Source: Aotearoamyces nothofagi (taxonomy: Eukaryota; Ascomycota; Leotiomycetes; Leotiales; Tympanidaceae). From it: DNA of 64,000 nucleotides. Below are positions 22,659-53,844 of this stretch, in pieces. The notes under the pieces were generated by a model that was not told the DNA's origin, did not search any database, and was given only the letters and a program-made list of their open reading frames with translations. The DNA lies in contig JADDTR010000004.1 in the NCBI GenBank assembly GCA_015345905.1, forward strand, positions 558,001 through 622,000, given 5' to 3'. Within the stretch, counting starts at the first letter, position 1. Each line of letters begins with the position of its first letter. The translations under genes were made by a program, and so were the position numbers.

Positions 22659-25380
22659 CTAGATCTCTAGCAGGGCATCTACATCTGACATTTGATTTGT
22701 CTCTGGTAGAAATACCGGAATCTCTTCAGATGTCACGGAGCCTATTTGGGCGATCTCATGATTCAAATCTCCTCCCTCGAACTGTGTCTTGGCGCGCAGA
22801 TTCCAGGAAGTGGTAAAGGTTCCATCTGGACATACTGTACTGGTACTGGGCAGCTGTAGCTGACTAGGAGATACACTACTCATACCGGCTTGGTATAATT
22901 GACTATCTAGCCAAGTATTATCTGGGTGGGACGTAGGAGTCGGGCCGAATAAATCATTCATATGGCTGTCATTGCCCAAACCATTGTCAGCAAAAGGGTT
23001 CTGGTGGAGACTGAAATTATCCAAATGAACGCCACCGTGAAGGGCCATGCCAAACCCATTGTCAGCAAAAGTGTTGCTTGGTTCGACAGTGGAATCCTGT
23101 TGGAAATTGAAACCATCCATTTGGCTTTCATTGGGAGGTACCATTTGAAAATGGCTGCCGGCATATCCAAGGGCGTTATTTTGGCTGAATGTAGGATACT
23201 GGGCATGTGAGAGGATGTGATCCATGTTGATAGCACCTTCAGACAAGGGACCATGATCAGGTATCATTCCCATATCCATTTTATGTCCAAGTCCATCAAC
23301 ATTGCCAAAAGATTCAAAGGTATTGTTTGGGCTCTCCGTGAAGGGGTCAATGGTTGAGCTGAATTGGGACGTGGACTTGCCACCAGTTTTAGCTGCACCG
23401 TTAAAGGCGACCCCTTCTGAAGGACCTTCTGGACTGTGTGCGAATATCTGAGGGTATTTGGGGAGTGTATAACTGTTTTCCGGCCTAAATATGACCTCAT
23501 TGGTGGCGATAGAGCAATGTGAGCTCTCACTTTTGATAAAATCACCACCCATGTCAAAGGCCTGATCCAAATCTTGATTTACCTGGCTATTGGGACCAAG
23601 GCTTGCATCGGCAACAGGGTTTTGATAAGTATACCCGAGATCATTAGCGCCACGAATGTCCTCGGATCTGGAATTCTCGATATCAACCTTGCCTTCATAT
23701 TCATCGAAGGTTTTATAATCGGAGCTGAAGGGATCTTGGCTATGGTAAGATTGGCCATGGTTGCTAGAGGAGTCATGCGGAAAGCTGTTGAGGATGTTGG
23801 AATTGATCGGAAGGATGACTACCTTAGGAGAAGACTCCACCTGCTCCTCATCGTCAAATAGCATCTCGGCATCCATTCTTTGCTGCATTTTCTTACCACC
23901 TGCGATGCTATGGATATTGTCTCTGACCTCGTCATAGTCCTGGACCTCGTCAGAGTCATCGGAGTCATCAGAGCCACCAGACTCATTATTCTCACAGGAC
24001 TGTGGTTGGTCTTCCTCAACCCCATGGTCTTCATCTTCAGAGTCCTCTTCAAATTTAATGTCAGACATCTCGGAATCAGAATCAGACTCATCAAGGACAA
24101 CCTTCTTGGAAAGCTTCTTGCGGCGGCCAGTTATAGTCTTGGGTGGGGTTGGTAGGCTGTGAATGTCTTTGTTGTTTGTCTTGGACCGATTGCTTCTAGT
24201 GCTCCTAGTATTCGTAGGATGAGCATGTTGAGCGATTTCATCCTGAAGTTGGGGTGTGCCGCCTAGCTGAGTATGAAGTTTCTGTCGCTCAGTGATGAAT
24301 CCAAGAATACCGGCATCATCAGGGTGAGCCTCCACTGGAGCCCACTGTCCCTTTTGATGCATACTCTCAATATCAAAGGGGTGGATTAGGACAGAGGCCT
24401 GTGCCAGTTAGTTTCCGCGATTAGTGGTGAACCTGGCGAGACTTACATCCTCGTACCAGCTGACCCAACGCTCATTGCCATCATTGTCCAAGACTAAACC
24501 TCTCACATCTGGTTTCTCTCGCTCATTACCACGACCAAGCATTGGTGGGACCCACGCGCCACGTGTCATGGCCTGACCACGCAACTTTTGCAAATGCTGA
24601 ATAATGGTGGCCCCGGTGGAATTCTTCTCAGATGAAAGACGATTGGCAACTGCATCCCATGGTATATCGACCTTAGCCCTGTGGCACTCATACTGTATGA
24701 TGAGTAGCAAGGTCTGATCAACGTATGCTACGGAGAAGTCTGAGTCAGTTCTTCCGTTCTTGAGAAGGGCGTGAAATAGAAGAAGAAGAAGAAGAAGAAG
24801 AAGAAGAAGAAGAAGAAGAAGCAGATAGCATGCCGTATACCTAACGCTGATACTGGAGGCGAGAGTTTGCCTGGTTGTAGAGCGTTATCGAGAATGGATT
24901 TCAACCAACAAGACCATGGGATTTGAGTTCCAAAAACGAAAATCTCTAAGAAAACGAAGGATTTATGGCTGCAGAGATAGTGGCGCGAAAGAAAGAGAGA
25001 CAAGTAGAATGATGCAACCTACCATTCCAGCGAATGAGTTTACGGCCAGCATGACGACCGTTGTCATCCTCAAAGTTTGGTGAAGGCTTCTGACAAGCGA
25101 TGTCCCAGCTCAACTTCGCGTTGGCATTCTTGATAGCTTGCTTTGCGGTACGCAAATTGGACTTCTTGCGGGCGTGAGGAGTGTTGGGATTATCAGAGTC
25201 GCTTGCATCAGAATCTTCCTCGACGCTGTCACCCTCGGTCTTTGAGATCTTCTTGCTCTTCTTAGACTCATTTATCGGACTATAGGTCATTGGTCCCTTT
25301 ATGGCAAACTTGCCAGCCATCTGCTTGACTTTGCTTGGCCTAGCCTTTACCTTGGTGACCTTGCCCTTTCTAGGAGCCAT
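22659..25380 (-). CDS. Myb/SANT-like protein A (large, transcription-factor-like)
   Basis: Exons are 25023-25380, 24447-24727 and 22659-24398, giving 792 aa. Residues 1-119 are basic then acidic (Lys/Ser/Asp-rich). The Myb-like domain spans about 121-175 with DQTLLLIIQYECHRAK, IPWDAVANRL and a basic third helix IIQHLQKLRGQ. An acidic block with DIKFEEDSEDEDHG follows. The last ~400 residues are Asn/Ser/Gly/His-rich with a repeated NTFADNGFG / NPFADNGLG text, like an activation or low-complexity region. The first intron is 295 bp and holds a GAA microsatellite. I recognise the fold class but no named orthologue. It is the first and largest of a row of related genes. Confidence 0.75.
24778..24821. 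repeat. GAA/TTC trinucleotide microsatellite
   Basis: About 14 uninterrupted GAA units on the plus strand (CTT on the sense strand of gene A) lie inside intron 1 of that gene, upstream of the acceptor at 24728. They add a long pyrimidine tract on the transcribed strand. Confidence 0.95.
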
Positions 25381-27376
25381 TGCTGCACTGGAGAGAGGTG
25401 CAGACAGCCAATGAAAGGTATTGTTTGTATGATAAAGTTGTTTGAAGTCCGTGCTGAAGAAGATGGCGACGAGTTAGCTGTGACTGAGCGGTGGCAACCT
25501 GCGAGTATGTAGGTGATGTGACGAAGACAAAGTGAAGCTGACAAAGGCGAAGAAGGTACTGCTTCAAGAGAAGTGAGATGGTAGGGGAGATGGTGATGTA
25601 AAGACAACGAGGATGGGAATTTGTTATGTGATGTTGAGTTGCTAGTGAATTGGAGGAGAAGGTAAGGAAAGTCGTCAATCATATTCAGGAGATACTTACT
25701 GGAGTGAACAGTGCTAGAGGGACTCTAGATGTGCAAGATTGAATGCTTGTCGGTTGTAGCTGACGTTGCAACCGACAAGTTTAGAAGTGTATGGTTGTTG
25801 TGGAGGCAGAGGAAAATGTTGACACTGTTATGGTTGCAAATATATACTTATAGGAATGTGGAAGGCCTGAAGTGTGTGCCCCATGTCTACTTTAGGAATG
25901 GAATTATGGTATTGTGTTAAATAACTTCTCAATAGCCTAATACTGAGTATCAATTGACGAATTATAGGGATATAGCACGCGCTTGACTTACCTGATAGGT
26001 CAACTAACGCGGCTGTAGCGCTTACCCCTCTTTCTAGCGCTGTCAGGTATATAGCAAACATTGGTAGGCCGGGAAACATAATATTACGTGCCTAATCTCG
26101 AGATAGGGTTTGACCTGTTAGGGCACAAGAAGTCGGCGTGTTTTGAGGTTACTCGGGATATCCTACTACATGTCAGAACGGAGAAATGAAGCTCCGAATT
26201 CAGAAACAATCTGCGAAAGATGCCAGTTTCATAGTTTGAATGCCTCTTCACTGACTAAGATACTATTTTTTGCAGATAGGCGGAATTGAGAAATCCTGCG
26301 AGATTTGGAAATTTTGTTTGATGCCTAAATATACCGAGGACCAGCATTGGAAAGTTATGCGGCAATGATACTTGTTACTGGGAATCAAAGCCAGTAGTTC
26401 TATACTGACTTTACGGCCTTGAATATCTAAATGATCTAATTGACTTGCGGTCTGAAGCGACGCACCTCAAAAACTTCATCACTTAGAATATTAAAACAAT
26501 TCATGATTCTCCTGTTACAGCACAATAGAGCAGCAACGCAACCACTATTCCAGTCCTTGCGCAAAGTGTTAGTCTATGCTTTCAAAACAGATAATTATTA
26601 TCATGTCTGCAGTTAATGGATCTCAAATTTAACTATACCTGAAATGCTTTTATCTGAAAAGCACTGCGACTTGAATTGGTGCGAATATGCTCACCATACT
26701 ACGCTAGTGACTAGTTACCCCTAAATACCTGATCCAAATACTTGATGTAGATCTCGTCCTTTAGTTTATAACTCCTTCTACGAGAAACAATTATGAGTAA
26801 TATGATCCTAAGGGAAGATTAATAATAGTTAAGCTATTCATAAATGTAGGTTGGTTTTGAGTACTCAAGCGCCAAACTTGAGTACTCAGGCGTTTGGCGC
26901 TACAGTGTAGGGCCGGGCCGCCAACCGCATAACGCGGCTAAATGAGGCTCTAGCCATGGCGTTGTTTGCTATTCCGACTACATTCCTTTTGAGCCGCAAT
27001 GAATAAGTATCGTCGCTAGGCAATTCAAATACAGCATATTCATTTTGCGTGACTTTTGATGAATTTATATTTAGTATCATCACTGGTGCCTTTTAGAAGA
27101 TCATCGCACTGTTTAAGTGGGATCCTCGAGCACGGCCATCTAGGCAAATGAAAGAAAGATGCCGTCAAGCTTTGATTCCATCCCAAGCAAGCCGTCCGCC
27201 GTAAAAATTGACTACACTAAGGAAAAGCCCATCGCCACCAGTTCCATGAAAATCTCCATCATTATTATGTGATGTGCTGCTCGATCGCAGACTACTCGCC
27301 CAAGCCCATGTTAAGAGCAGACGCCCCGTTAGAAAGCTCATATATGGCTGACTGCAACCCCGGTAAAGGATTATGC
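25381..27376. other. 2-kb gene-free stretch between Myb-like genes A and B
   Basis: No supported gene is present. The part next to 25381 holds the promoter and leader of gene A and is pyrimidine-rich on the sense strand. From about 25970 to 26910 there are GC-richer islands in AT-rich DNA, including the paired palindromes at 26858-26901. Short open frames here have no domains. Confidence 0.45.
26858..26901. repeat. Nested palindromes and hairpin
   Basis: The 10-bp perfect palindrome TGAGTACTCA occurs at 26858-26867 and 26879-26888. Interleaved with it, AGCGCCAAAC (26868-26877) pairs with GTTTGGCGCT (26892-26901). The result is a hairpin with a 14-bp loop that contains the second palindrome. 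Confidence 0.85.
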
Positions 27377-28151
27377 TCAATCACCAATGAGGATACTCTC
27401 CTGTTGATACTGAGAGCCCTGGGAGCTATGGGCCTGGGCATCATTGTTTCCGGATTGCTCGTTGTACGGAGGGAAACTCATATATGGCTGCTGAGGTTGC
27501 AAGTCATATGCGGTATCAACTGGGGTATTGTAACCGGCGGAGCCTGTCTCATAGATGTTGTTGTCACTGACATAGTCCTCTCCTCCATTAACATGGGGAA
27601 GGTACTGCAACAAGCTGCTAGGGTCCTCGAATTGCTGCTGTTGCTGCTGAGCCTCCTCCTTGACCATAAGTTCTTCGCCCATACCACGACTTGGGTCAGG
27701 CTTTATGTTTGCCGCAAATCCTTCATCATCGTCGGTTGCGCCACGGTCATCAGCAAATGCATCCATCTTGCGCTTCTTGCTGGGAGTGGTTGATTCCTTG
27801 CGCTCGGCCTTCACACTGCGGGCTGCGGCTGGAGACCTGACGGAGGCAGCGTTAGGAGCAATACCGTGGGCTTTCATCATGCGTTCATATCGCTTGGCAC
27901 TACGGCGTATTTTGAATTTAGCTTGAAGCCCAGATGATCTGCGAATCAAGATGTGAATGTGAGGACTAATAACTTACGCGGCGCCCTTGGTAACAATTTC
28001 ACATTCATGGGCTACCTCGCCGAAGTCAACCTGAGAAAGTCAAATTGATATTCGTGACACTTGTGAGTGATAATCTCACCTTGCCATTGTTGCTCCAGCG
28101 AATGCAGCTGATGAGGAATTTGAACTGCTCTTCATTGGAAGCAGGCGCCAT
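27377..28151 (-). CDS. Myb/SANT-like protein B
   Basis: Exons are 28080-28151, 27978-28030 and 27377-27899, giving 215 aa. The Myb-like domain is at about 8-56: EEQFKFLISCIRWSNNGK, then VDFGEVAHECEIVTKGAA, then the basic helix AKRYERMMKAHG. The second intron is phase 2, just before helix 3. A closer acceptor (27938, CGCAG) is also in frame but inserts 13 extra residues, so I prefer the TAG acceptor at 27900. The rest is low complexity: a basic TPSKKRKMDAF nuclear-localisation-like patch, acidic text, a Gln run, and Tyr/Gln/Ser-rich C-terminus. MVKEEA and NIKPD fit the SUMO consensus. I know of no characterised orthologue. Confidence 0.75.
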
Positions 28152-28900
28152 GATGGATGTCCCGGGAAAGTTAATTGATTTGAATGTCGAAATTTTGCTG
28201 TACTGAGTGTCAGTGGGCTGGGTGGTAGTTGACAGGAATAGAATCTTGAACGATGATAGAAGTCTCAAGGTTGGAGGTGCGTCTAAAAAAATGATAGCCT
28301 CCGCGGGGTGGCAGGATGTCCGCTCTTAAGTCTACCTGGTCTTTGGTCAAATATTTCGCTGAGCGTAAATGTCAATTAAGGTCTACTTGCAGGCTGACCG
28401 CGACTTGCCGACAAGAAAAGTTTTGGATCAAAGAGTATGTGATGTATCACAAAGGGAGGGGTGGGAAGTGGCAGGGGTTTATGCACGATCGACAATCAAT
28501 CACACGCCCGAAGGATCGGCCATCTTCGTTCACAAACTGCGGGATATATTACTGGGATCTTTATGTTGCATGGATTTCTAGAATACCGTGTGCTACCAGC
28601 TACGATAACGTGAATGTTTGCTCCCGCTGGCACTATTGATGTGCTTCCGAGGCAGTCACCACAACTGTATCTCCGCCACTAAACTGTGCCATATGAGTAT
28701 GCTGTTCTAAATTCAGAACTGAGAGAAACGCAACATCATCTACAATAATTGGCGCCGCTCAGCGAGGATCGAAGGCCATCATTCTCACCTAATCAGTAGG
28801 AGACTACCGAAAAGGCAAGACCATTGGGGTTTTGCGACCATCGAGAAAACAAGCGATATGGATATTGAGGGAGCCTCTTGGTTAGGGAGCTTGGAAGCCA
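28152..28900. other. Intergenic region between Myb-like genes B and C
   Basis: About 750 bp hold the promoter of gene B and the 3' flank of gene C. No supported gene or repeat was seen. Confidence 0.45.
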
Positions 28901-29646
28901 CTAAGCCTCATCATCGCTGTGGTTAAAATTGGTGTCTGGAGTGGGAGCACGACGTGCTAGTTCACGGTACTCCTCAACGGAAATGCCCATGAGTCTAGCA
29001 TCCTCTTCATCCTCATCCATGTCCTTGTTGATGGAGTTATTGACTGGGGTAAATTGAGCAGGAGACTTGCCCTCAAATCCATTCATCTCATGGTCGGTGG
29101 TAACGTCCTCATGCGAACCTTCACTCTTCACTTCCTTCTCCTCCTCGGAATCTTCCTGGGCTTCCTCCTTGGTTTCCTTCTTAGTCTTTCTTGGAGTCTT
29201 TGGACCTCCGTTGCCGGTCTTGCGAGGAGTGGTCTGTCTGCCAACCCCTTTCTTGCTTGCTGCCTTGGCTTTTGGCTGCTTTGGGGTTCCGTTGTTATCG
29301 GTCTGGTTAGTAGCTCCTGCACTAGCACCGCCGTCGGCACCAGCCTTCAGCTTATCCCATATCTTCTTGAAGGCAGACCGGGCATTACGAGCATACTTGT
29401 GGCCGACAAGGGGCGCGACCTTCTCAAAGTCGACCTGAATGTCGTCCATGTGTGTCAGTTATCAGTGATATATATTGATCGAGGAAGTAATACGTGACTT
29501 CACATGCAGAAACATAAAGATTACACTGAAATTTAAGGGGGGCTTGGGAAAGAACTGTGGTGTATACTCACAGTAGGCATATCCTTCATTTCTTGGAGCA
29601 CGACGGCGAGCATCTCCAATTCTTTGGTGGTTAAAGTTAGGGCCAT
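28901..29646 (-). CDS. Myb/SANT-like protein C
   Basis: Exons are 29572-29646 and 28901-29434, giving 202 aa. The start MALTLTTKELEMLAVVLQEM and the splice to VDFEKVAPLVGHKY rebuild the same domain plan as its neighbours (about 5-58), with helix 3 NARSAFKKIWDKLK. An in-frame ATG at 29449 (MDDIQVDF) sits inside the intron and would drop helix 1. The middle is basic, with TPRKTGN and PKTPRKTKKE repeats that look DNA- or RNA-binding. An acidic stretch with EVKSEG, a SUMO-type motif, follows. The protein ends NFNHSDDEA. The function is unknown. Confidence 0.75.
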
Positions 29647-30619
29647 TGTTGCTGGTTTGCGAAAGTTCTGAGTTAAAGTCAGCTGGCTGCAGAAAGTAGC
29701 CGTAGACGAACCACATTTGCACCCGGATAATGGTAACAGCGTTGTTGCTCATTTCTGGGCCGGGAATTTACAGAAGTGAACTTCACCTCATGCCCCTCAC
29801 AAAATGAGGGAAATCTGAGGTGAGAAATATCGAAGATAGAAAAGCTTACTTTGTATTTCTGGTTGTATTTGGAATCTCTAGAGAAGATTGTTGTGACAGA
29901 GTGTCAAATTTGTTGAGCTTTTATGTTGTGTGAAGGCTAGAGGAAGCTGGAGTGTGATGTTGTGTAGAAGGGAAGAGCTGAGAGGCGAGGGGTTCGAGTC
30001 TCTTATAGAAGAGCGAAGCGATGTACTGTACACTTCGAGGAAGACTAAGCGAGACCTCTTCACTGAGCGCGTAACTACCAGGTAAAGGCTACGAACTAGG
30101 TGCTGTGGGCTGGCTTGTGCTTCATCATTCTATGATGTACGTTTTCAGAGTTTTTCATTACTACAGATCAATCCTGACAGTTCCGAAACGATTATGCATG
30201 ATTACGCGGCTGGGAAACCGGGGTTCTTTGCTGTAAAGAGCAGTACAGTAGTACCCTAGAGTCTACTATGGCTTATTCGCCTTTGGACTATAATTTTCAC
30301 AGAATTTAGTCATGATCTATCCGTCTACTTTATGGCCATTGCCACCAAAACTTGAAAATGAAATTTCATTTATAGTAACTAATCAGCCTGCAGATCACGA
30401 ACATCTCCCATGAGATCGGAACCTGTTAGAAAGATAGTTCGGATCTGCAAAGCACCATAAAAAGCGAGCTTTACCGAATCAAAGAAACAATCCCGTGGTA
30501 GGTTTGCATCTTGCTACGAGAAAACTGTGTCAAACCTCCCTTGTCGAACCTAGCAGAAAGATACGGGCATCAGCAGTACCTGGATCATCATATCGAAATG
30601 AATAGATGAAGCAAATAGC
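29647..30619. other. Intergenic region between Myb-like genes C and D
   Basis: Nearly 1 kb hold the promoter and leader of gene C (29650-30070 is pyrimidine-rich on the sense strand) and the 3' flank of gene D. No gene was recognised. Confidence 0.45.
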
Positions 30620-31408
30620 TTAAGCTTCGTCAACATCATCAGCACTGTCATCCTCATGCTTGACATTGTCCTCAACTATCTGAGAATCCTCCTCATCGTC
30701 AGACTCATCAGACTTGATTTCAAGATCCTCCTCGTCGTCATCGCTCATAGCCTCAGCCTTTACATTCTTCCTAGCGGTGCCCTTCTTAAAACGGGGCTTA
30801 GTGACCTTGTTCTTGGACGGAGTGATAGGAACAGCTGGCTCATTTAGGCCCTGAGCATCACTGGCCTTACGAGCGGAGGTAGGAGCGGACTTGTTGCCAG
30901 TACCGATGGGGATGTTGTACTTCTTCTTGAGGTTGGCAATGCGGTTGGCGACGGACCCGGCGTTCTTCTGGCCACGATATTCGGCAACGGCCTTGGTGTC
31001 AATCTAGAAGACATCAAATGTTAGTATCGATCTATGGAGATGCATGCTCTAGTACAAGCGGTGAAAAGGTCTGAGACAGATCGGAATGCTAGCCGTCATC
31101 CCGTGACGACATCATGACTGATAATATGCATAAATAACACATCGAGGGATATTAGGAGAGGAGATGGTGTAAGGTAGGAGACTACAGAAACTAGCATGTA
31201 TGACACATGACCGTGAGATGTACACAATATCATAGATCGTCTTTGTAGAGATGATGAAAGATGAGATCGAGATCGAAATAGGTTAACTTACAGAGATGGA
31301 ACCACCGCTAGGATGCATGAGGCAGTCGATGAGGAACTTCATCTCATCATTAGACATGCCGCCTGGAAGGCCCTCAACATCAGCCTCGACAGCTTTCTTT
31401 GGTGGCAT
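30620..31408 (-). CDS. Myb/SANT-like protein D
   Basis: Exons are 31292-31408 and 30620-31003, giving 166 aa. The domain is at about 18-72: NDEMKFLIDCLMHPSGG, a phase-0 intron, then IDTKAVAEYRGQKNAG and the helix SVANRIANLKKKYNI. Here the usual Trp/Phe after Asp is Thr. The intron is 288 bp, long for this window. The tail is Lys-rich (KPRFKKGTARKN) then very acidic, and holds NVKAEA, EIKSD and NVKHEDD, three SUMO-type motifs. It ends DDVDEA. Small size and charged tail suggest a nuclear DNA-bound factor, which is inference. Confidence 0.75.
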
Positions 31409-32286
31409 TGTGGAAAGTTGTTGGTGAAGTAAGTTCAGTGTCTTTGTGATATGCTAATATACGAGTCAACAAACCATCTCATCCTGATTCTGTGTCTTCG
31501 ATATCATACCTCAGGTCTTGGAATGAGTTTCCAAGAGTGCGTTTCTTGTGGTGTTGCAATGTGAAAATTTTGAGTGTTGAGATGAGAGTGCGGGTTGCGA
31601 TGGATGTGGAGGAAGGGAGTAGGTTGAGGAGTGAAGAGCTAGCTTTTATAGGGAAACAGAATGCTGCAGAACAGAGATGCGCCGAATTAAGCGGGGAACT
31701 TATCGTACTTCAGTGTGCGTTCCTCCTAGGCTGCACAGAACCACAATGCTTTTATTTTGCTCTTCCTGTTCGTAAGTGAAGCGCGGTCTCTTGTTATCAT
31801 CAGTACGCGTGCACCTTTGAGACTTTGGATCCAAGCTCATCAGTGTAGTCAGCAATTCTTTCAAGAAAGTGACTTACCTAACTGCTATCATATTCCGTAA
31901 ATCCATTGTGGATTTACCCTCAAGAGTATCCCGTCTTTCTAAGCGTCGGAATTCATATCAGTTTCAAATGCACGAATACCTGCACTGTTTCACAGACAGA
32001 TGGATTCAAAAGATCATCTCATTTTCATATGCTGTGGATAGCTCTGGAAGCAATGTAACCAAAAACTTGCAGTACCTAGCTTTCTCACCAGCAAACTATT
32101 TCCAGAGATTCGTGTCGCTATCCATTTTTATTTCGCTGTCAACGCATTAACTCCCTTTCTGTCATTTCTCCTGTGCGAAGTGCACCGCTACCTAGAGGAG
32201 CCTCCCGTAAAGACATGCGTGAGAACTCCAGCACTCTTCTTGAGAGATCTTCCTCGCGGGGGTTTTCACAACCATGAAGATATGAT
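31409..32286. other. Intergenic region between Myb-like genes D and E
   Basis: About 880 bp hold the promoter of gene D and the 3' flank of gene E. No further gene or repeat is supported. Confidence 0.45.
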
Positions 32287-32978
32287 CTAGGCAACTTCAT
32301 CTTGGTTATGTTCGTCAATGTTGTAGAACCTATTGTTGTCAGCATCATTCTGACTGTAATGAGATGCGAGAAAGATGTGATCTTACTCCTCATCCTTGAT
32401 CATGTCGCTCTCAACATTCTGCTCATCCTCCTCCTCGTTGGCAAACTTGGTCTTGTCATCGGTAACGGCGTTCTTGAGCTTCTTTGGTGGGCGATCACGA
32501 GGCTTATTAATCTTAGAGGGCTTGGCAGCAACGGCAGCTGGGGTTTCCGTGGAGGCTGCACTCAACTTTCTCTTTATCTGCCGAAAACGAGTCCGAGCAA
32601 CACATGCAGACTTATACCCCATCTTTGCAGCAACCAATCCCCATTCGGTCTGTTATGATATACTTGTTAATTATTTATAACAAACAAAGATAACGGGCTG
32701 CGACAAAGAGTATGGGATAACTAAAAATTCAGGGTAGTTACGATATAAAGAGCCAAGGCATATGAGTAAGAGCCTCCATAAAACTATGGCAAACAAAATG
32801 CTGCAGCAGACTTGGGATTATATGAATGGAACTTACGTCTGGCTGGCCCTTCATGTTTGCAAGAATTTCAAAGAAAAATTCGGCCTGCAATCATTAGTGC
32901 TTTTCATAGTGCAGTGGGCGGTATATCACTTACGTCTCTCTGAGATGGCTTGACGGTATCCTCGTCTGGCTGAGACAT
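32287..32978 (-). CDS. Myb/SANT-like protein E
   Basis: Exons are 32934-32978, 32837-32884, 32387-32649 and probably 32287-32329, giving 132 aa. The domain (about 14-64) reads AEFFFEILANMKGQPD, phase-0 intron, TEWGLVAAKMGYKS, then the helix ARTRFRQIKRKL. ILANMKG matches ILANVKG of gene F, so E and F are the closest pair in the row. If the last intron is not removed, the frame stops at once (GAG TAA at 32383) after 119 aa. I prefer splicing because GTAAGA, a GCTGAC branch and AATAG are present. The resulting 43-nt last exon also has the same length and phase as that of gene F. Confidence 0.7.
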
Positions 32979-33838
32979 CCTTTCCTTGATGTTAGTGGCG
33001 AATATATCAAGGCAAGCTAGCGATAAGCTCACTTGGAGTTACGTTCCTAAAAGGCGGACTTCAGTATACTTGTTGACGTAAGCCAGCGATTCAGATCAAG
33101 GCGCTACTCACAGTTACGAAGATGATTAAAGTATCGTTGAGCTGTTTGACAGTCAGACTATGATTCTCAACTACGTTGGACCTCATTCGTCGTTCCTGGA
33201 TGAGAGTCCTTGTCGTTAGGAAGGCTGGATAAACATACATTTACGTAATGTTTCACAATATTTTAAATTATTGTTGAGGACACAAGCGGCCCGTGAAGCT
33301 TCCGTGTGTAGATGTGAGTCGGAAAATAGTTGTGAATAAATTAGAACTTCTGGGAGGGAGGAGGCGGCTTTTATATTGACCGGAGGGGGCCTAAGCGACC
33401 CCTCTCAAGAGAACTCGGAGACTCCCGCTTCAACTGGGCCTATTTTTTCAAGCTGATACTCCGGGGCTGTTCATAGAGTCTTTCTTATCATTCAAGGGTG
33501 CCTGCATGTTGCCGATCAACTCCATCCACACCTTTGGCAGTGGCGTTTCTCATATGGCTGGCGATGTACGGTATCCTTGAAAGTATCCTTACCGGCCATT
33601 CCGTAAGTACGTATTTTATGACAAGTTCAGAGCAATATACTCGAGGCTTATTCGTAACTTTATAGACTATTTTAGTTATAACATGAAAAGCTATCATTTC
33701 AGGACAACATCGCTTTCGCTTCGTTAATATATCGAGAAGCCTACTGAAACATCCCAAAGTTACTCAAAACACAATAGGAATCTGCACTCTTCCGTTGGTC
33801 ATTCCCTAAATCTCCTATCTTCCAGAACCTCCTATCCT
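32979..33838. other. Intergenic region between Myb-like genes E and F
   Basis: About 860 bp hold the promoter and leader of gene E and the 3' flank of gene F. No gene was recognised. Confidence 0.45.
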
Positions 33839-34620
33839 TTAGGAGTCATCGATATACTCATCCCCTTGATCATGAAAAGTACTATAATCCAATCAGTATC
33901 ATTTCAACAGCCTGCAAACCTTCCAAAATCGCGGCAGGTAACAAAGAACTGCGAACATACCTATCCATATCTTCCTCCCCTTTCACATCCGGAAGCCCCA
34001 AGCCGTCATCAGTATCATCATCTGTCCAATCCTTACCCCCCTCGTTACCATCCTCATCAACCAGCCTCCTAACGAATTCCATCCCCTTCACCGCCGACGC
34101 CCGTTTCGGCGGTCTAGCTTTTGGTTCTGCTTTCACCACTCGACTTGGTGTCGACGGCATCGCAGTGGACTTGACAACCTTATTCGGCGACGAGTTCACC
34201 GAGGAAGCCGGTGAAGTATTCGCCGAAGACGAAGATGAAGTCCTAGACGATACTTGGCCAGGACCAGAACTAGAAGTCCAGCCCAGTTTCTTCTTGAGCT
34301 GGCAATAACGCGAGCTTGCGACATTGGTGTTCTTATAATCCATCACAGCAGCGACCGCCTCCCAATCGATCTTTGATAACGTCAGCTACCGAGCCGATAC
34401 TCGAACAACCGCCGGTCCTTGAAATCTTGAAAATGGGAATCGGGAGCAGTTAAAGTTGGGGATTTGGCATGGGATATCGAAATGGACAGACAGGTATGAA
34501 AGATTGACGATTTATAGTACCTACCTTTGGACTCCCCTTGACGTTCGCAAGAATGTGCGCTAGGAACAACGCATCTTTGGGATTCAACTGCGTCTGTTTC
34601 TGAGGCGACGGCGTAGCCAT
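33839..34620 (-). CDS. Myb/SANT-like protein F
   Basis: Exons are 34525-34620, 33961-34370 and 33839-33881, giving 182 aa. Domain (about 14-65): KDALFLAHILANVKGSPK, phase-0 intron, IDWEAVAAVMDYKN, then helix ASSRYCQLKKKLGW. This is the clearest Myb-like pattern of the row. A Ser/Thr-rich linker follows, then a basic patch (PKARPPKRASAVKG) and an acidic tail. VVKAEP and DVKGEED are SUMO-type motifs. The last intron (GATAG|GTATGT...TTATAG) leads to a 43-nt exon ending DEYIDDS. Without that splice the frame would read on into a less plausible hydrophobic tail. Confidence 0.75.
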
Positions 34621-35367
34621 TCTATTTCTGTCAGATCAGCTCCTCTCTCATTCTTCTTTTCTATCACATAAAGCCAGCTATAAGAGCGCTGTCATCCACG
34701 CCACTATCATCCATCCCATGAATGAAAGAAGAAACGCATTTCGCTCAAGAGGTTAGTCAATACGTACGTTGGTTCAAGTCAAAGACTCTCTCTCTCTCTC
34801 TTTTCTCGTACAGTTCTGAAGGATTTCTTACTTCGACGATCGGTATAATGCAAGAATTGGAAAATATGTGTCGTTCAATGGACGGTGGAGGGTGTTACTG
34901 CGAGCGGATTGTGCGAGGACTTGAGACTCAATGGGCGATGTGGGTGTGGGTGTGGGTGTGTATGATTTATATCGTATGGGCGCGGCGTGCAGCGAAGGTC
35001 AGATCGGAGCAGGATGGGATGGGTCCCTGTAGGGCCGAAACGGCTTACGCGGTGTGCTGAAAGCAACCCAGCACGCTAGGTGCATAGATAAATGGAGGGG
35101 CGGGAACTGGATTATTGAGTTACATGGATTTAATGGTGGGTGTGTTGATCGCTGCTCTGGGGTGGTACAGAGGAAGGGAGTGTTCAGATTGCTGGGTTCT
35201 GGTGACGATTTCTCGAGGAACTTCCGATTGGTAAGATTTCTTAGTATTTTGATAATTCCATTATGTACTATTTGTTCTAACCTTGATACAATAGGAAAAC
35301 TCCAAAGACTGCTACATATCCACCCAAATCCCAAATTAACCCAGTATTGTGATTTCAACAGAGGTAT
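34621..35367. other. Intergenic region between Myb-like genes F and G
   Basis: About 750 bp hold the promoter of gene F, including a short CT microsatellite at 34785-34800, and the 3' flank of gene G. No gene was recognised. Confidence 0.45.
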
Positions 35368-36225
35368 TTATACCATTGCATAGGAAGCATCCCACTTCTC
35401 CTCCATCTTGACCATCATCTCCGAATGGCCCATTCCCATTTGCGGAGTAAACATATCCAAATACGGCCCCTCAAAATGCTGTGGGATGTCCATCGCCATG
35501 TCATACCCTTGCAACAGCATGTCGTCATGCATCTGTTGATATATGTTTGCTTCATGCTGCGGATGGACCATTAAATTGAAGTTCGTGACTTCTGACGTAT
35601 GTGGGGTTTGGGGTTGGCTTGAAGGAGTCTCGATTCGCATGTGCATCATCGGCGTGTTAAGCCCGTACTCGGATTTTGGCGCAACTGCCTCCTCGGCAAT
35701 TGGTTCAGCCTTAACAATCATAACAGCTTCAGGTGCTCTCTGTACTGTCGTCCCAGAGGCGTCGTCAAGGCTTGACGACGTGGGACTGGACATTTGACCC
35801 AAGAGTGAAGGATCTGGTCTGCTAGACTGCTGTGTGTCTTGTTCCAAGGCAGGAATTTCGAGTTTAATGTCCGAAGCCATGTCTTCAGCTACAATCTTCT
35901 CATTTTTTGGGGGGCGTCCAGGCTTCCCAACACGTTTGGCTACATTCTTCCGTGGCTTGCGAGGACTTATGACGTGACCTTCCATTTGTCCCTTGAAGCG
36001 GGAGAAGCGCATGCGAGCTGCGTGCCCATTGGTGATGTTGTTTTCACTGGAGACCTTGTGCCACTCGATCTGACAGGCATGAAGCTCAGCATTGGTAAGC
36101 TGAGGATGTGTTGCGGTACTCGAAATATGTGTGGACGATAAGAAGATTAGATTACTTACACTCTTCAGATCCAGTTGCTTGATTATAGAATACAGAAACT
36201 GATGCATGGGATCTTTACCCGGCAT
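35368..36225 (-). CDS. Myb/SANT-like protein G with AT-hook-like motif
   Basis: Exons are 36160-36225 and 35368-36069, giving 255 aa. Domain (about 7-56): MHQFLYSIIKQLDLKS, phase-0 intron, IEWHKVSSENNITNGHA, helix ARMRFSRFKGQMEG. Just after it, SPRKPRKNVAKRVGKPGRPP holds a GRP core like an AT-hook, a minor-groove binding motif. DIKLEI, IVKAEP and MVKMEE fit the SUMO consensus. The C-terminus is rich in Met, Gln and His. The 90-bp intron is a multiple of three without stop codons, so an unspliced mRNA would insert 30 residues between helices 1 and 2. The start is the first ATG; the upstream in-frame codon is GTG. Confidence 0.78.
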   Translation of the reverse strand: MPGKDPMHQFLYSIIKQLDLKSVSNLIFLSSTHISSTATHPQLTNAELHACQIEWHKVSSENNITNGHAARMRFSRFKGQMEGHVISPRKPRKNVAKRVGKPGRPPKNEKIVAEDMASDIKLEIPALEQDTQQSSRPDPSLLGQMSSPTSSSLDDASGTTVQRAPEAVMIVKAEPIAEEAVAPKSEYGLNTPMMHMRIETPSSQPQTPHTSEVTNFNLMVHPQHEANIYQQMHDDMLLQGYDMAMDIPQHFEGPYLDMFTPQMGMGHSEMMVKMEEKWDASYAMV

Positions 36226-36969
36226 GGCTGGACCTCTGCGTAAGCTCGCCACGGTTGCTATATTGCCTCAGACCCCAGCTATGGGAAAGGAGAGGTGCAA
36301 TAAATTTGAAATGGCGCAAGTGTGCGTGAGCAGAATGCAGAATACAGGGGATTGGTGGCTGGATGATAGAAAAGACGGCACGGTGAAGAAGATAGAAGCG
36401 GGCAGAAATGAGAGCTGAAGGATGCTAATATGTGATCGGCTGTGAAAGAGAAACGGAACGCAAGGTTTGCTCTCACAGCTTGCTCGAACAGCTTGCTCGA
36501 CGAGGCGGGCGGACTAACACCCAGCTGCAAACCCAGCTGCAAACCCAGTTGAAGAGTCTATGTCATAGGTTTCAAATAAATATTGAATAGCATGATACCA
36601 TGTGGGCTGCCGGAGAGGGAAAAGGAGATGTAGACGCGGCCAGGAATGATAAAAGTGCAGACGCGTTAAGTGCATGCATGAAGAGGTAGGGGTTTGTTTC
36701 TCGGCAGACGTGGATATCGACCAAAGAGCGCATCATCTCCAGTTCCCAGGACAATGAGGCCGGTGATGGGAAAGCGCAGAGAGTAGGGCGGGTGCAGTGG
36801 GTGCAGTGGGTGTGCAGTGGGCACAATAATGATATGATGCTGGTGCGAGATGCACAGTAGTCGCTGGGGGGAAAGAATGAAGAACGACAAGGGGATGGGC
36901 CAGGAAAAGAAAGGAGCAGGTGGGCTGAGCTGAGCTCGAGAGCTGAAGACGTGATCACCACAGTAACTA
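36226..36969. other. Region upstream of Myb-like gene G with short tandem repeats
   Basis: This holds the promoter of gene G. It contains CAGCTTGCTCGA twice at about 36477-36500, ACCCAGCTGCAA about 2.5 times at 36520-36552, and GTGCAGTGG-type repeats near 36785-36820. No gene is supported. Confidence 0.5.
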
Positions 36970-37584
36970 TCATGCGCACGGACCCTCTCCATATCCTCCC
37001 AGGCTACGTACCGTCGCGCCACCCGTTGTCTCTGCTGCCTGCAAACGAGCCCGGGGTTTGCCGGCTTGTGGAACGGCAGAAGCAAGGGAAGTAGCGGTGT
37101 GTTTTGTTATCGAGGCCGTCGAGTCCGCCGAGTCCGCCGAGTACCTGATCGCCGCTGCCGTGGCCGAGTGATTGGGCGTCGTGGCTGGAGACGAGGAGGA
37201 TCCCGGGCGATAAGGCCTGTGGGTCCTGGGTCCCTGGGCCAGATCTGGGGAAACCCGTGGCGACGGGCCATCTGTGCCAGGGGCGGCTGCTAATGCCTCC
37301 TCTGCCCATGAGGCGCACCGTGCCGCCCGTGCCTGCATATGCAGGTGCAAAGATATACAGGCCTGCTGTGCAGCCTCAAAGATATTCTGGAAGTGATTGG
37401 AGCATGCATCATAATACCAACCTCTGGACATCCGCGAAGCTGCAGATGGGTTTGATGGTGAAGCTTGGTAATGTTGACTCATTGGGCCTTGATTATCGTC
37501 CCATGAGCATAAGCGTCCGAATAATGAACTGATATGCCAAGGTTTGCATGGGATGGCTGCTTTGATATTCTCCCAGGAGGTCAT
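36970..37584 (-). CDS. Possible degenerate Myb/SANT-like protein H
   Basis: An open frame of 204 codons starts MTSWENIKAAIP, whose W-E-x-I resembles the second helix of the neighbours (compare IDWEAVAAVM in F). About 50 codons on, GWYYDACSNHFQNIFE resembles the HEACRQHYQKI helix of gene I. A first exon with helix 1 was not found upstream, and the text between the two blocks may be an intron. The C-terminal half is GC-rich Ala/Ser/Pro low complexity. Unlike the other members it has no psi-K-x-E motif. It is either a damaged or partial member, or a gene whose exons I could not place. Confidence 0.3.
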   Translation of the reverse strand: MTSWENIKAAIPCKPWHISSLFGRLCSWDDNQGPMSQHYQASPSNPSAASRMSRGWYYDACSNHFQNIFEAAQQACISLHLHMQARAARCASWAEEALAAAPGTDGPSPRVSPDLAQGPRTHRPYRPGSSSSPATTPNHSATAAAIRYSADSADSTASITKHTATSLASAVPQAGKPRARLQAAETTGGATVRSLGGYGEGPCA

Positions 37585-37874
37585 ATTCCGGATAGTTCTT
37601 TTTGTGTGCCGGGGTTCCCTATCAAATATTTCTCGGCGTGGTGGCTACTATGAGAGATAGCCTAGTGTGGGCCGGCATTTTGGCTGTTTCCCCCTCCAAC
37701 CCCTCCGCCTACTTATCAACTCCTATCTTGCTTTCACAGTAAATTCACACACGCAACTCTGTGCCAAACTCAGGCCATCAACTCCTATCTTGCTTCGCAT
37801 TTCTCCCAACTCCAACTGTCTTGCCTATACCTCTGATCAAGTATCAAATCTCATCAGCCATCAACACTATCAAC
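37585..37874. promoter_or_regulatory. Divergent region between Myb-like genes H and I, with direct repeat
   Basis: This 290-bp stretch lies upstream of gene I. ATCAACTCCTATCTTGCTT (19 bp) occurs perfectly at 37715-37733 and 37777-37795, 62 bp apart. It may be a duplicated promoter element or a simple local duplication. Confidence 0.6.
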
Positions 37875-38651
37875 ATGCCTTCTCAGTGGGACCATAAAGC
37901 TGACAAGGTAATTCTACGCTTTTGGCTTCTGTTAACAAGATTTCTGTTCACAAATAACTTTAGGATCTGCTCCTTACAATCATCGAGGACGGAAACCTCA
38001 CTCACATCGACTGGCCATCTGTCTCTGGCACAATGAAGGGAAAGAACTACACCTTCAGCCACGAAGCATGTCGGTAAGTTCATTATTTATTGGTTTACAT
38101 TTCCACCGTTCACTCACTACAAATTCACGTCTCAACTTTACATGAATCTGATAAGCTTCAAAAAAAACTGCATTTAATCACATCTTCCTTTCTTAGCACA
38201 TCTCCTCCTATCCCATCCTGTATATCATTCCTATACATGAAACGCAAGCACTAAAGTCATCTCAGTCAACATTACCAAAAGATCCGCAAAGAGTCCCGCA
38301 AGGACACCGGTAATGGCAGCTTCTCCACACCTACCAAAGCCAGCGCGTCCGCCAATTCAACCCCAAGCTCCAAGCGTTCGGCAAAATCTATGACTACCTC
38401 GACATCCAGCAACGCCGACGATGACGAGGAGATACAGACGCCTTCAAAGCGGAAGCGGATGACAAAAAAGGAAAAGCAGGAACAGGAGGACTTGGGAGGT
38501 TTCCTGAACCAGTCGGCTACACAATTTAAGATCGAGAGGGATGACAGTGATGGTTCTCATATTCCGATTGATTTGGAAGGGGATAGGTAAGTTCTACTCC
38601 TTTTGCTGCGTCTTTTGTACTGATGCGTGCTATAGTATCTATGATGCCTGA
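37875..38651 (+). CDS. Myb/SANT-like protein I
   Basis: Exons are 37875-37907, 37964-38073, 38266-38586 and probably 38636-38651, giving 159 aa. MPSQWDHKADK joins DLLLTIIEDGNLTHIDW and PSVSGTMKGKNYTFS, then the helix HEACRQHYQKIRKES (domain about 12-60). The intron before helix 3 is phase 2, at the matching place to that in gene B. A Ser/Thr-rich linker, a basic TPSKRKRMTKKEK patch and QFKIERDD (SUMO-type) follow. Without the last splice the frame ends EGDR at 38590. With it (GATAG|GTAAGT, branch TACTGAT, CTATAG) it ends SIYDA, parallel to genes E and F. It is the only plus-strand member of the row. Confidence 0.75.
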
Positions 38652-40388
38652 TCTACTTTGCGAATCATCGGATCATATTCCCATCTACTAAGCATTGCCT
38701 ATAATGAAAGGCATAGATCGTGGTGGAATGATATTGGTTGATAGGGAGGGTGCACTGCTTTTTAAGAAAATCGTTTCTATACCTGGCTTGATAGCGTTTT
38801 GATTTCCTCCTTTTTCATCATGGCCATAAGCTACTATCACGACAACGACCAAAAATCGGCATGATGAGATATTTCCATAGTCACCTGAAGCAAACAAAAT
38901 AAAAATCAACCATGCCCCTATTGTCCCCAAGATCTATCCCAGCTGCACACCCCTCCTCCAAGTTCCTCCCTCCCACCCTCTCCATCGCCCTTTCCGCAAG
39001 ACCCGATACACTCCCACACCCTCAGCCAATCCTCCCAAACCCGTCGTTAATCCTCCGTGAACCCAAGATAGCATCAGATAGCCGTCCGGCCAAGCACCGA
39101 GTCATGCCCGCCCCCGTCCTCGGACGAACTCTCTAGCCGTGCTGACGCCCAGGGTGCCGTCCAGGATCAGCAAGTCGGAGACCCGCAAAAAAGAAAATGC
39201 ACCTGCATAAGTGTTTCGAGCACCTCGCAAGAGAAACCCTTGCGGGCGACGACCGCGAGCTTGTCATGCGTTCATCCTGGTTCCCGGAATGGGGAGCCGT
39301 CGGGGCGGGCGGGTTGGCTGGGTGGTGAGTGGGAATTTGCTTCTGGTCTAACGATTTCTCTTTGTTTGCTTTTTTTTGGAGGGGAGGATATAGAGGGGTG
39401 GTGGGTGCGATAGGGATAGCATGATAGGCACAGGAAAGGAAGGTGACACGGTGGCTGAAGAAAGACATGTCGCTCGCTGCCAGTCGCTACTGTAGCAAAT
39501 CGCATTTCCTACTACCAAGACGAACCAATATCAGGTCGCCATACGTACACACACAGCCCACGAAGCTGTATACCAACAATAATCAACCCAAAAAATAACA
39601 TGCAATGATGCTTGTAGAGATATATCCTCTTATAGATATCACTCCCTTATTTACAATTTGAAGATTTATATTAATAGGTGTTTTTAACTAGTGTTTCAGA
39701 CTCAGCTGACTCCGCTAAATCGCATATGTTACCTGACGTTACCTTACATCACGTGTACAATAGAGTAAACCAATGTCCCACTAGCCAGCGGACAGACATA
39801 TGTAAAATAGGATACTCTTAGACTGGTTTAGCCTTAAGCTTCCAGCATATTAATCAAGGAACAACTTCACCAAGTTGACTACAAACTTATGTGTAACGTC
39901 CGCTGCACCCCAAACAAATATCGATGAGCTAGAACAATATAATACAACTGTCAACAAATATACATCCCATTTCTACTATTTCAAGAAATTCTTTTGCCTT
40001 GTTGAATTGCGGATTGTAAACTCGACTTGATACCTTAAGTTCGAGGGTTGATTTTTAATATTGTAGCTGTGGTGAGAGAATACGGACCTGAAAATACACT
40101 GTATGGCTTGATATTAATAGATTAAAGGCGTTCCGTTGACAAAGAAATGGCTCTTCTCAATCCTCAAGGCCCTTTGTCTACAAAAATAGCTTGAATACTT
40201 GATGGTGTTGCTAACACCAACATCCACAAAGGAGCTTTGTTACTAAACAAAGGTCCTACAACAGCACATCCACATCTTCAGCAACAAGTAAATCATTCAA
40301 TTCTGATTGAGTATAACTACTCCAACCACTTATCCGGCAGCCAGGCCAAAATCCGTGATCGTAAGTGTCCCTATTTCAAATCTCCACA
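38652..40388. other. 1.7-kb gene-free stretch
   Basis: This lies between gene I and the amidoligase-like gene. Open frames at 38912-39136 (plus) and 39133-39468 (minus) lack domains and are Pro/Ser-rich shadows of C-rich DNA. From about 39540 to 40250 it is AT-rich without genes. Nothing recognisable was found. Confidence 0.45.
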
Positions 40389-41429
40389 ATGTCCAACCCC
40401 TTTCCCATGCCAACCATAACATTCGGTCTCGAGCTCGAATTCCTCTACGCCTCACGCATAGACCAAATCCTCGCCTTTCTCGGCCGCCAGTTCGAGAACC
40501 GCCAGGACGACACCGAGGCCTTCCTCGCGACACTTCTCAGTGAGCCGCTCAGCAATGCCACCCCGTCTGCTCTGGGCCCCATCGGCCGGCACAATAGTAA
40601 GGAGACCGCCCAGTATTTGCAATGGTCCATCACGGGAGACGGCTCGGTGGGAGCGACGCAAGACGAGATCGCCTCACAGCTCGAAATCGACGAAGCCGAG
40701 CTCGACGCGCACTGGCACTACATCGGGCTGGAACTGGTGTCGTCAGTATTGCTCGTCTCGGCCGAGCCGCAATGGCTCGCCATGCTGCAGCAGATCGAAG
40801 GAAACCTGACCCCCATCCCCTTTGTGCGCGGTGCTTTAACCAACGACAGTTGCGGACTACACGTGCATTTCACGTTCCGGGAGCAGCAGCTCGATCTGCA
40901 GACGCTCAAGAACCTGATCATCATCTGGACCGTCTGCGAGGAGGAGATCAACGCTCTGCATCCCGCGCACCGCCTACCGCCGCTGAATGAATACGCGCAG
41001 TCCATGCGCGAAGCCTGCCGGCCTTATTCACATCAGCGCTTCGCTCTGGGCATCTATTCGGCCACGTCCGCGGAGCAGATCCAGGCTACCATCGGGACAA
41101 GCCCGCACGGTGGCGAGTTGCGGAATAGCAAGATCAATATCTCCTTTGCGAGGGGGAATAAGCCGCTGACTGTTGAGTTTAGAGAACATAGAAGCACGAT
41201 CGATTGCCAGGAGATTTATTGGTGGGTGAAGCTCTGCGAGGGTGTTTTGAAAGTGAGTAGATATTTGGCCATGATTGGCTTGCTGCTTGTTGATCAGCCA
41301 GACTTACAGGGACGGGATGTTTTTGCGTTCTTCAAGACCTCGCTTTTTGAAATAACTAGGTTGGGCGAGCAGGGGAATCAGTTCTTTAATGAGAAGAGGG
41401 CCGAGTATGACCTCGAGAAAGGTAACTGA
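40389..41429 (+). CDS. Amidoligase-like protein
   Basis: A single open exon encodes 346 aa. The first ATG gives MSNPFPMPTITFGLELEF, the usual opening of the putative amidoligase family, which has a glutamine-synthetase/GCS-like carboxylate-amine ligase fold. Later motifs are SCGLHVHFTF (about residues 155-164), a helix-rich middle, and LTVEFREHRSTID (about 257-269), with Glu and His residues that bind metal and ATP in this fold. The substrate is unknown. A 45-bp GTGAGT...CAG stretch near 41252-41296 is in frame and stop-free; I keep it as coding. Codons are rich in third-position G and C, unlike the Myb-like row beside it, and the gene stands alone in AT-rich DNA. Confidence 0.75.
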   Translation: MSNPFPMPTITFGLELEFLYASRIDQILAFLGRQFENRQDDTEAFLATLLSEPLSNATPSALGPIGRHNSKETAQYLQWSITGDGSVGATQDEIASQLEIDEAELDAHWHYIGLELVSSVLLVSAEPQWLAMLQQIEGNLTPIPFVRGALTNDSCGLHVHFTFREQQLDLQTLKNLIIIWTVCEEEINALHPAHRLPPLNEYAQSMREACRPYSHQRFALGIYSATSAEQIQATIGTSPHGGELRNSKINISFARGNKPLTVEFREHRSTIDCQEIYWWVKLCEGVLKVSRYLAMIGLLLVDQPDLQGRDVFAFFKTSLFEITRLGEQGNQFFNEKRAEYDLEKGN

Positions 41430-51960: not shown

Positions 51961-52661
51961 TTCCAGTTTCCCCCATGCACCGACTTTTGGATATCATGAC
52001 TTCCTCCAGCCTCTCTCTGTTTTAACTTTCTCTTGTCAGCTAGTCTTGACGTATACACCCGCTGGCGCTGGCTGGTACTTGTCCTTTTCGTCTCATCTGT
52101 GGCGATTGGCCAAGTATTATCTTTGGCCCTGCCAATCATGCCCACGTTGTGACGATCTACGCGAGCCGCCCGTCACCTCTTGACTTCTCTGAAATAAGGT
52201 CGCTGTCCTCATCTGAAGTACATGGAGCTCCCGTATTAGACTCCTTATTTACTATATCCTTGTAGGAGCCGTCGGTACTTGTAGTTCAACTTGCCTATTT
52301 TTACAGCTCCTTGATAGTGCACTATCATATTTCTCTGGGCAAGGCTCCTCCCGCCGTCTGGTCACGTCTCTAACGCGGTAGCTTGGACAAGGCTACGGAC
52401 TGTACGCCGTCAGGGTTTCCGGCTAAACAGGGCTATCAGATTCTCACAGGTGATCCGTCAGCCTCGACGGCATCTGCCCTTCAAACCGACAAGGTGGATA
52501 TCTCCCTCCTGGTGCAGGCTCCTGAGTCAAATGAGTCGGCTCCTCCTCCTCCACCGACACATACACACCACACCAGATCATCATCAGGCCCACCATCCTC
52601 AACAACGGGAGCCCCCCCTTTAAATGCCACAGCAGCCTGTGGCACCAGGGGGGAGCGTAAT

Positions 52662-53844
52662 ATGCCTCCTAATCCACCTAATCCAAGTGAGAATCCAGCG
52701 AAGAAGCAGAGCAAGTGGTCGGCGGAGGAAGACGCCTTGATTATTGATCTTAGAGGACGTGGAATGAAATGGGAGGATGTTTCCAAGAGGCTTCCAGGAA
52801 GGAGTGTTATTAGCTGTCGTCTACATTATCAAAACTACCTCGAACGACGAAGCGAATGGGATGAGGAACGAAAGAACAAGCTAGCAAGACTATATGAAAG
52901 GTATGTTTGATTTCAACATATCTAAGATGCTCCCTATAACTCCTATCTCGAGACCATCTCTACCTTCTAGTTACCAATCACCAATCAATTCTGGTGTATT
53001 AGATAAATCGATCTAACACCCAGCCAGATTTAAGCCAGAAATGTGGACTAGAGTCGCGGAAGAAATGTCCATCCCCTGGCGCGCTGTAGAAGCAATGCAC
53101 TGGCAACTAGGAGAAGCAGATATGGCACGTCGCGCCGGCGTAATTGCCTTTTCCCTCTCCAACGCCACGGTCGATGCTGCCGCTATCCAGCCACAAACTC
53201 GACATCCGCCCCCACCTCCTCAACATAGATACTCCCCTACGCGAGGACATGGACATTCCCATTCTCAGGCCGATACTCCAACCAGCCAGCCCCAGATTTC
53301 ACACCCCCCTCCACCTCCCCAGCACAGCTACTCCCCTCCGCGAGGACATGATCATTCCTATTCTCATTCGCACGATAGTACTGCATCTATGGCGACGTCG
53401 AGCCGATTTCAGCGAGGTCACCACCATAACCCGTCACGGAACCTTGCTGCAAGGAGAGATAATTTCCACCTGCCTCGCTCAGGCCCACCTCTTTTATCGC
53501 CTTCAGAAGGTGCCATGTTGGCCGGGATGGGTGACCTGGGGCGCGGGATGGGTGGAGGGGTAGGTGGGCCACCACCTCCGATGTTGCCAAGTGTGTCAGA
53601 GATGACGACTGGGATGAGTCCCTACAACACGCCTGCATATTCTATCTCATCACCAATGGGGGGCGGCTATACGAGTCCAGCACCGTTGCTACCATCAATC
53701 AGCTACGGATTTCCACCACGATCATTGACAGCAGCACCAGAAGTCCCACCACGACCGCAAACAGCGGCACCCGAAGTAGGGAAAAGGAGAGCAAGTCCCG
53801 ATGTTGCAACTAGTGAGTCATCAAGGAGACGGCAGAAACGGTGA
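52662..53844 (+). CDS. Two-repeat Myb/SANT DNA-binding protein
   Basis: Exons are 52662-52900 and 53028-53844, giving 351 aa from the first in-frame ATG (MPPNPPNPSENP). Repeat 1 is canonical Myb: KWSAEEDALIIDLRGRGMKW, EDVSKRLPGRSVISCRLHYQ. Repeat 2 is split by the intron: ERKNKLARLYERFKPEMW, RVAEEMSIPWRAVEAMHW. The rest is Pro/His/Ser/Gly-rich with a tandem duplicated block. The frame is open upstream of the ATG back to about 52383, with Pro/Thr-rich text typical of the N-terminus of this family. A 5' exon with the true start is therefore likely. It is a separate Myb class from the row at 22.7-38.7 kb. Confidence 0.8.

Follow-up and report, generated by a model that had tools for sequence, protein, structure and literature searches.

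The window analysed here, a 64,000-nucleotide stretch of Aotearoamyces nothofagi DNA at 558–622 kb of a 1.41 Mb contig (genome of 25.5 Mb in 55 contigs), contains a real row of Myb-like genes, as a preliminary description of the sequence had proposed. Gene models were hand-built from the sequence, without RNA, and their frames and introns were checked. They comprise eight complete intron-containing genes with intact frames and GT–AG introns: A to G lie head to tail on the minus strand, and I is on the plus strand. The lengths given earlier, 132 (E) to 792 (A) residues, are those of the models. The cluster sits mid-contig, with conserved genes on both sides. In window coordinates, the features are:

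Left flank: cpn60 chaperonin gene (Pfam).
Gene A: 22659–25380, minus strand, three exons (25380–25023, 24727–24447, 24398–22659), 792 amino acids.
Gene B: 27377–28151, minus strand, three exons (28151–28080, 28030–27978, 27899–27377), 215 amino acids.
Gene C: 28901–29646, minus strand, two exons (29646–29572, 29434–28901), 202 amino acids; diverged member.
Gene D: 30620–31408, minus strand, two exons (31408–31292, 31003–30620), 166 amino acids.
Gene E: 32287–32978, minus strand, four exons (32978–32934, 32884–32837, 32649–32387, 32329–32287), 132 amino acids.
Gene F: 33839–34620, minus strand, three exons (34620–34525, 34370–33961, 33881–33839), 182 amino acids; last exon 43 bases.
Gene G: 35368–36225, minus strand, two exons (36225–36160, 36069–35368), 255 amino acids.
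'Gene H': 36970–37584, minus strand, open frame only; coding unsupported.
Gene I: 37875–38651, plus strand, four exons (37875–37907, 37964–38073, 38266–38586, 38636–38651), 159 amino acids; divergently transcribed, diverged family member.
Putative amidoligase gene (Amidoligase_2, PF12224): 40365–41426, plus strand, adjoining the cluster.
Right flank: this amidoligase-domain gene together with Ufd1-domain and GYF-domain genes (Pfam).

Codon usage agreed with these models. With a score trained on ten flanking frames (seven with Pfam matches, three picked by eye), the annotated frame beat the five other frames in all eight genes, in F by a narrow margin (0.078 versus 0.022). The last exon of E (43 bases) is a modelling choice; the unspliced frame meets a stop a few bases past 32387. 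The frame called H, already regarded as doubtful, scored below zero (−0.092) and had no Pfam match at E 1, and we do not retain it as a gene. Some 14 kb beyond the right end of the cluster (52374–53841, plus strand) is a gene of the canonical Myb_DNA-binding type (PF00249).

Gene A had been counted as a member of the Myb-like family, and this claim did not hold. Scored with a leave-one-out profile of the family it reached −0.5 bits, a value equalled or exceeded by 247 of 2000 shuffles of its own sequence, and the hhalign probability was only 8%. The first 381 of its 792 residues had no Pfam match at E 1, and the sole match to A in a single query of the genome was A itself. Its membership is thus undetectable by these comparisons and not supported; we treat A as a neighbour, which may belong to a distinct fungal family. 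An AlphaFold2 single-sequence model of one exon of A contained three helices and two strands at low confidence (mean pLDDT 47.9), and a Foldseek search with this low-confidence model returned no matches at E 0.001. Intron 1 of A contains 16 consecutive AGA/TCT triplets (24778–24825).

The row had also been assigned as a whole to Myb_DNA-bind_8 (PF22980), an assignment that stands directly for three genes and by weaker or indirect evidence for four more. B (81.8 bits), G (61.5 bits) and F (39.0 bits) exceeded the curated cut-off of 27 bits, D (26.6 bits, E 3.6e-6) and E (22.3 bits, E 8e-5) fell below it, and C and I had no match to this model at E 1. In B, D, E, F and G the 50 positions of the model were covered nearly completely. 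No convincing NCBIfam match was obtained for A, C or I. In leave-one-out profile searches, each of B, C, D, E, F, G, I and a further gene, J (described below), outscored all 2000 of its own shuffles, with small margins for D, C (16.7 against a shuffle maximum of 10.6) and I (11.9 against 8.5). The hhalign probability against the family was 90% for C and only 27% for I, which we count as a member because of its leave-one-out score together with intron positions that it has in common with other members. Sequence comparison therefore supports Myb_DNA-bind_8 family membership for seven genes of the cluster (B, C, D, E, F, G and I).

The AlphaFold2 single-sequence model of G, in which an in-frame intron was read through, had a mean pLDDT of 49.6; neither this model nor that of A counts as evidence here. 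PDB sequence searches with profiles of eight and of five domains returned nothing significant: the best match was a sensor kinase (E 0.21), followed by the Myb factor Reb1 (E 0.26), which reached E 1.4 in the other search. The region of helix 3 is basic throughout the family, with four to six lysines or arginines among the last 16 domain residues in all eight members.

Intron positions are independent evidence for family descent. B to G and the unlinked J have a phase-0 intron in the same alignment column, just before [VIT][DE][WFT] between helix 1 and helix 2; in B it precedes VDF. Gene I does not have this intron. B and I have in common a phase-2 intron where helix 3 begins, and a terminal phase-2 intron is found in E, F and I, with last exons of 43, 43 and 16 bases. 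Together with the Pfam and leave-one-out profiles, these introns bear out, for seven genes, the earlier suggestion of repeated local duplication.

The duplications look old, because pairwise identity among the eight domains is only 12–47% and no DNA-level repeats beyond simple ones link the genes; E and F are the closest pair. Direct repeats of at least 24 bases amounted to one GAA-type simple repeat and one pair within gene A. In a tree of the eight domains none of the five inner branches was starred, leaving the branching order unsupported. Two dinucleotide indices never jointly indicated repeat-induced mutation in 20 one-kb bins. Words of 8, 9, 10 or 12 bases in the 600 bases before the eight genes were common to at most four of them (two 8-base words in four genes, 0.5 expected; one 10-base word in three, 0.1 expected), which is too weak to claim as a shared signal.

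The seven members occupy 11.3 kb (27377–38651). Elsewhere in the genome we found one further clear member, J (contig C24, locus L002, 1379–2316; 55.8 bits to PF22980), the second exon of which was read directly to its stop without a short last exon. A family search of the genome gave six matches up to E 10, namely G, F, both B exons, J and a 15-bit match on contig C8, the sequence of which was not member-like on inspection. Single-domain queries of the genome with C, D, G, I and J each retrieved only the query, and E and F retrieved each other (45–48% identity, E about 0.01); B was left out of the single-protein queries. The genome was searched exon by exon, and at E 0.001 the family model recovered only three of the seven cluster members (B, F and G), so that a few more diverged members may exist elsewhere. 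Finding seven of the eight known members within 11.3 kb of a 25.5 Mb genome goes far beyond what chance would give.

Outside the domain, the proteins had been described as having nothing that aligns. Alignment is indeed poor, but the tails have features in common. They are rich in lysine, aspartate and glutamate; seven of eight contain a basic run or RPPK, D being the exception, with RPPK in E, F and G (as a GRPPK patch in G). All seven cluster members are acidic over their last 40 residues (net charge −4 to −21, mild in B and G). The tails also carry motifs of the form hydrophobic-K-x-E, which is the consensus for SUMO acceptor sites. Residue positions of these motifs in the cluster proteins and in the neighbour A are:

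Gene A: IKFE 327, IKSE 501.
Gene B: VKAE 71, VKEE 121.
Gene C: VKSE 127.
Gene D: VKAE 120, VKHE 153.
Gene E: IKDE 115.
Gene F: VKAE 111, VKGE 161.
Gene G: IKLE 90, VKAE 141, VKME 242.
Gene I: FKIE 135.

With A and J included, [VILMF]-K-x-E occurs 17 times and in nine of nine proteins, compared with 2.8 expected, and none of 5000 shuffles contained as many. Control motifs were at chance, whether lysine was replaced by arginine (3 versus 1.5 expected), glutamate by glutamine or asparagine (2 versus 3.4) or the motif was reversed (2 versus 2.8). The eight family tails (1137 amino acids) hold 15 motifs, with at least one in each protein, and the domains hold none. When tails were shuffled within 20-residue blocks, 1.28 were expected and the maximum in 5000 shuffles was 7, which excludes simple composition as the cause of the excess. 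The stricter [VIL]-K-x-E occurs 14 times in seven of eight tails, gene I having none. Taken singly, four genes have unremarkable counts (shuffle fractions of 0.12 for A, 0.37 for C, 0.28 for E and 0.14 for I). The same motif, VKAE, appears in four genes (B, D, F and G), and since paralogues are not independent, some of the excess may go back to one ancestor. Two of the three motifs in J (VKIE and LKIE) fall among its last 10 residues. A four-residue motif of this type falls short of proof of modification.

The excess did not extend to two control sets of frames from this genome. Among 95 other long open reading frames the motif was slightly depleted (23 versus 32.2 expected, present in 20 of 95); these were uncurated frames, 200 residues or longer and without mutual overlap, from 22 stretches, 20 of them sampled and two being the window flanks. 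In 14 transcription-factor-type frames it was at chance (6 versus 6.8 expected, in 6 of 14). This second control is thin, consisting of 12 frames from 15 Myb loci after three duplicates were dropped, one Fungal_trans frame and one additional frame from the Myb gene inside the window, with four frames cut by the end of a locus. Gene content is that of a fungus: by Pfam, the genome has at least 125 Zn_clus matches, and a Fungal_trans domain is also present within the window.

We assign a probability of about one half to the reading that B, C, D, E, F, G and I form an old tandem family of small, SUMO-controlled nuclear DNA-binding regulators. A single N-terminal Myb_DNA-bind_8-type domain would contact DNA through its basic third helix and be followed by a probably disordered tail that ends acidic, carries one to three lysines of SUMO-acceptor type and in most cases has a basic run. 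While the protein is bound to DNA, its sumoylation would limit its residence there or recruit repressors, and selection would have retained this SUMO switch while the remaining tail drifted. SUMO-controlled chromatin residence is proposed here by analogy with yeast Sko1, for which sumoylation of the DNA-bound factor is reported to lower its association with chromatin and with nontarget promoters (PMC6392331). A bolder version, which we regard as unlikely, makes the array a SUMO-gated switchboard in which the members differ in DNA target but share one control, the tails keeping mainly their SUMO-acceptor sites.

Some of these features would also suit SANT-type adaptors, which contact proteins or histones of chromatin rather than binding specific DNA sequences. 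Small size and the acidic ends of B–G and I (net −4 to −21) are consistent with such a role, which nevertheless seems somewhat improbable to us: the four to six basic residues at the end of the domain in all eight members and the basic runs or RPPK in seven of eight tails argue for contact with DNA, as does the Pfam name, though this is a name only. The hydrophobic-K-x-E motifs could instead be functionless, inherited from one ancestor or arising as a side effect of tails rich in lysine and acidic residues, a possibility for which the composition of the tails and the recurrence of VKAE in four genes speak. Shuffles that preserve composition within 20-residue blocks gave 1.3 motifs where 15 were seen, reversed and substituted motifs were at chance, and neutral inheritance should not survive in tails grown so dissimilar; we consider this explanation very unlikely.

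The divergence of the genes raises a further alternative, along the lines of the preliminary description: a DNA-binding family that evolves fast to follow shifts in its DNA targets, for example repeats. Domain identities of 12–47%, the lack of linking DNA-level repeats beyond simple ones and the finding that five of seven singly queried members retrieve only themselves, with E and F retrieving each other, would all be expected under rapid change. Great age, however, accounts equally well for deep divergence, the cluster lies mid-contig between conserved genes, and the dinucleotide indices jointly indicated repeat-induced mutation in 0 of 20 bins, making this alternative distinctly unlikely in our view. 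Under the preferred reading of SUMO-controlled regulators, the divergence would reflect old duplications, and the acceptor motifs would be what selection held on to.

On sequence comparison, the cluster genes are further members of a domain family that is already listed in Pfam. A text search of open-licence papers found none that name PF22980 or Myb_DNA-bind_8, and a limited search found none that describe fungal paralogues of this single-domain DNA-binding kind arrayed in tandem. Within the same limited reach, the SUMO-type feature common to the family is undescribed. Should the tails persist chiefly to carry SUMO-acceptor sites, one could ask of this family what selection preserves in a disordered regulatory tail, and Myb_DNA-bind_8, so far a named family, would gain a first testable function.

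Set beside what is known, the cluster has both likenesses and differences. J resembles its clustered relatives in having the phase-0 intron in the same place and three hydrophobic-K-x-E motifs, and differs from them in being unlinked and in the net charge of its last 40 residues, which is 0. The likeness to PF22980 is carried by B, F and G, which pass the cut-off of that model, whereas C and I have diverged beyond its reach and A is unmatched. Canonical Myb factors (PF00249, for example at 52374–52907 in the window) resemble the cluster proteins in having, by Pfam name, a Myb-like DNA-binding domain, but the two are described by different Pfam models, and the SUMO-type motif, enriched in the cluster proteins, shows no enrichment among the canonical frames of this genome.
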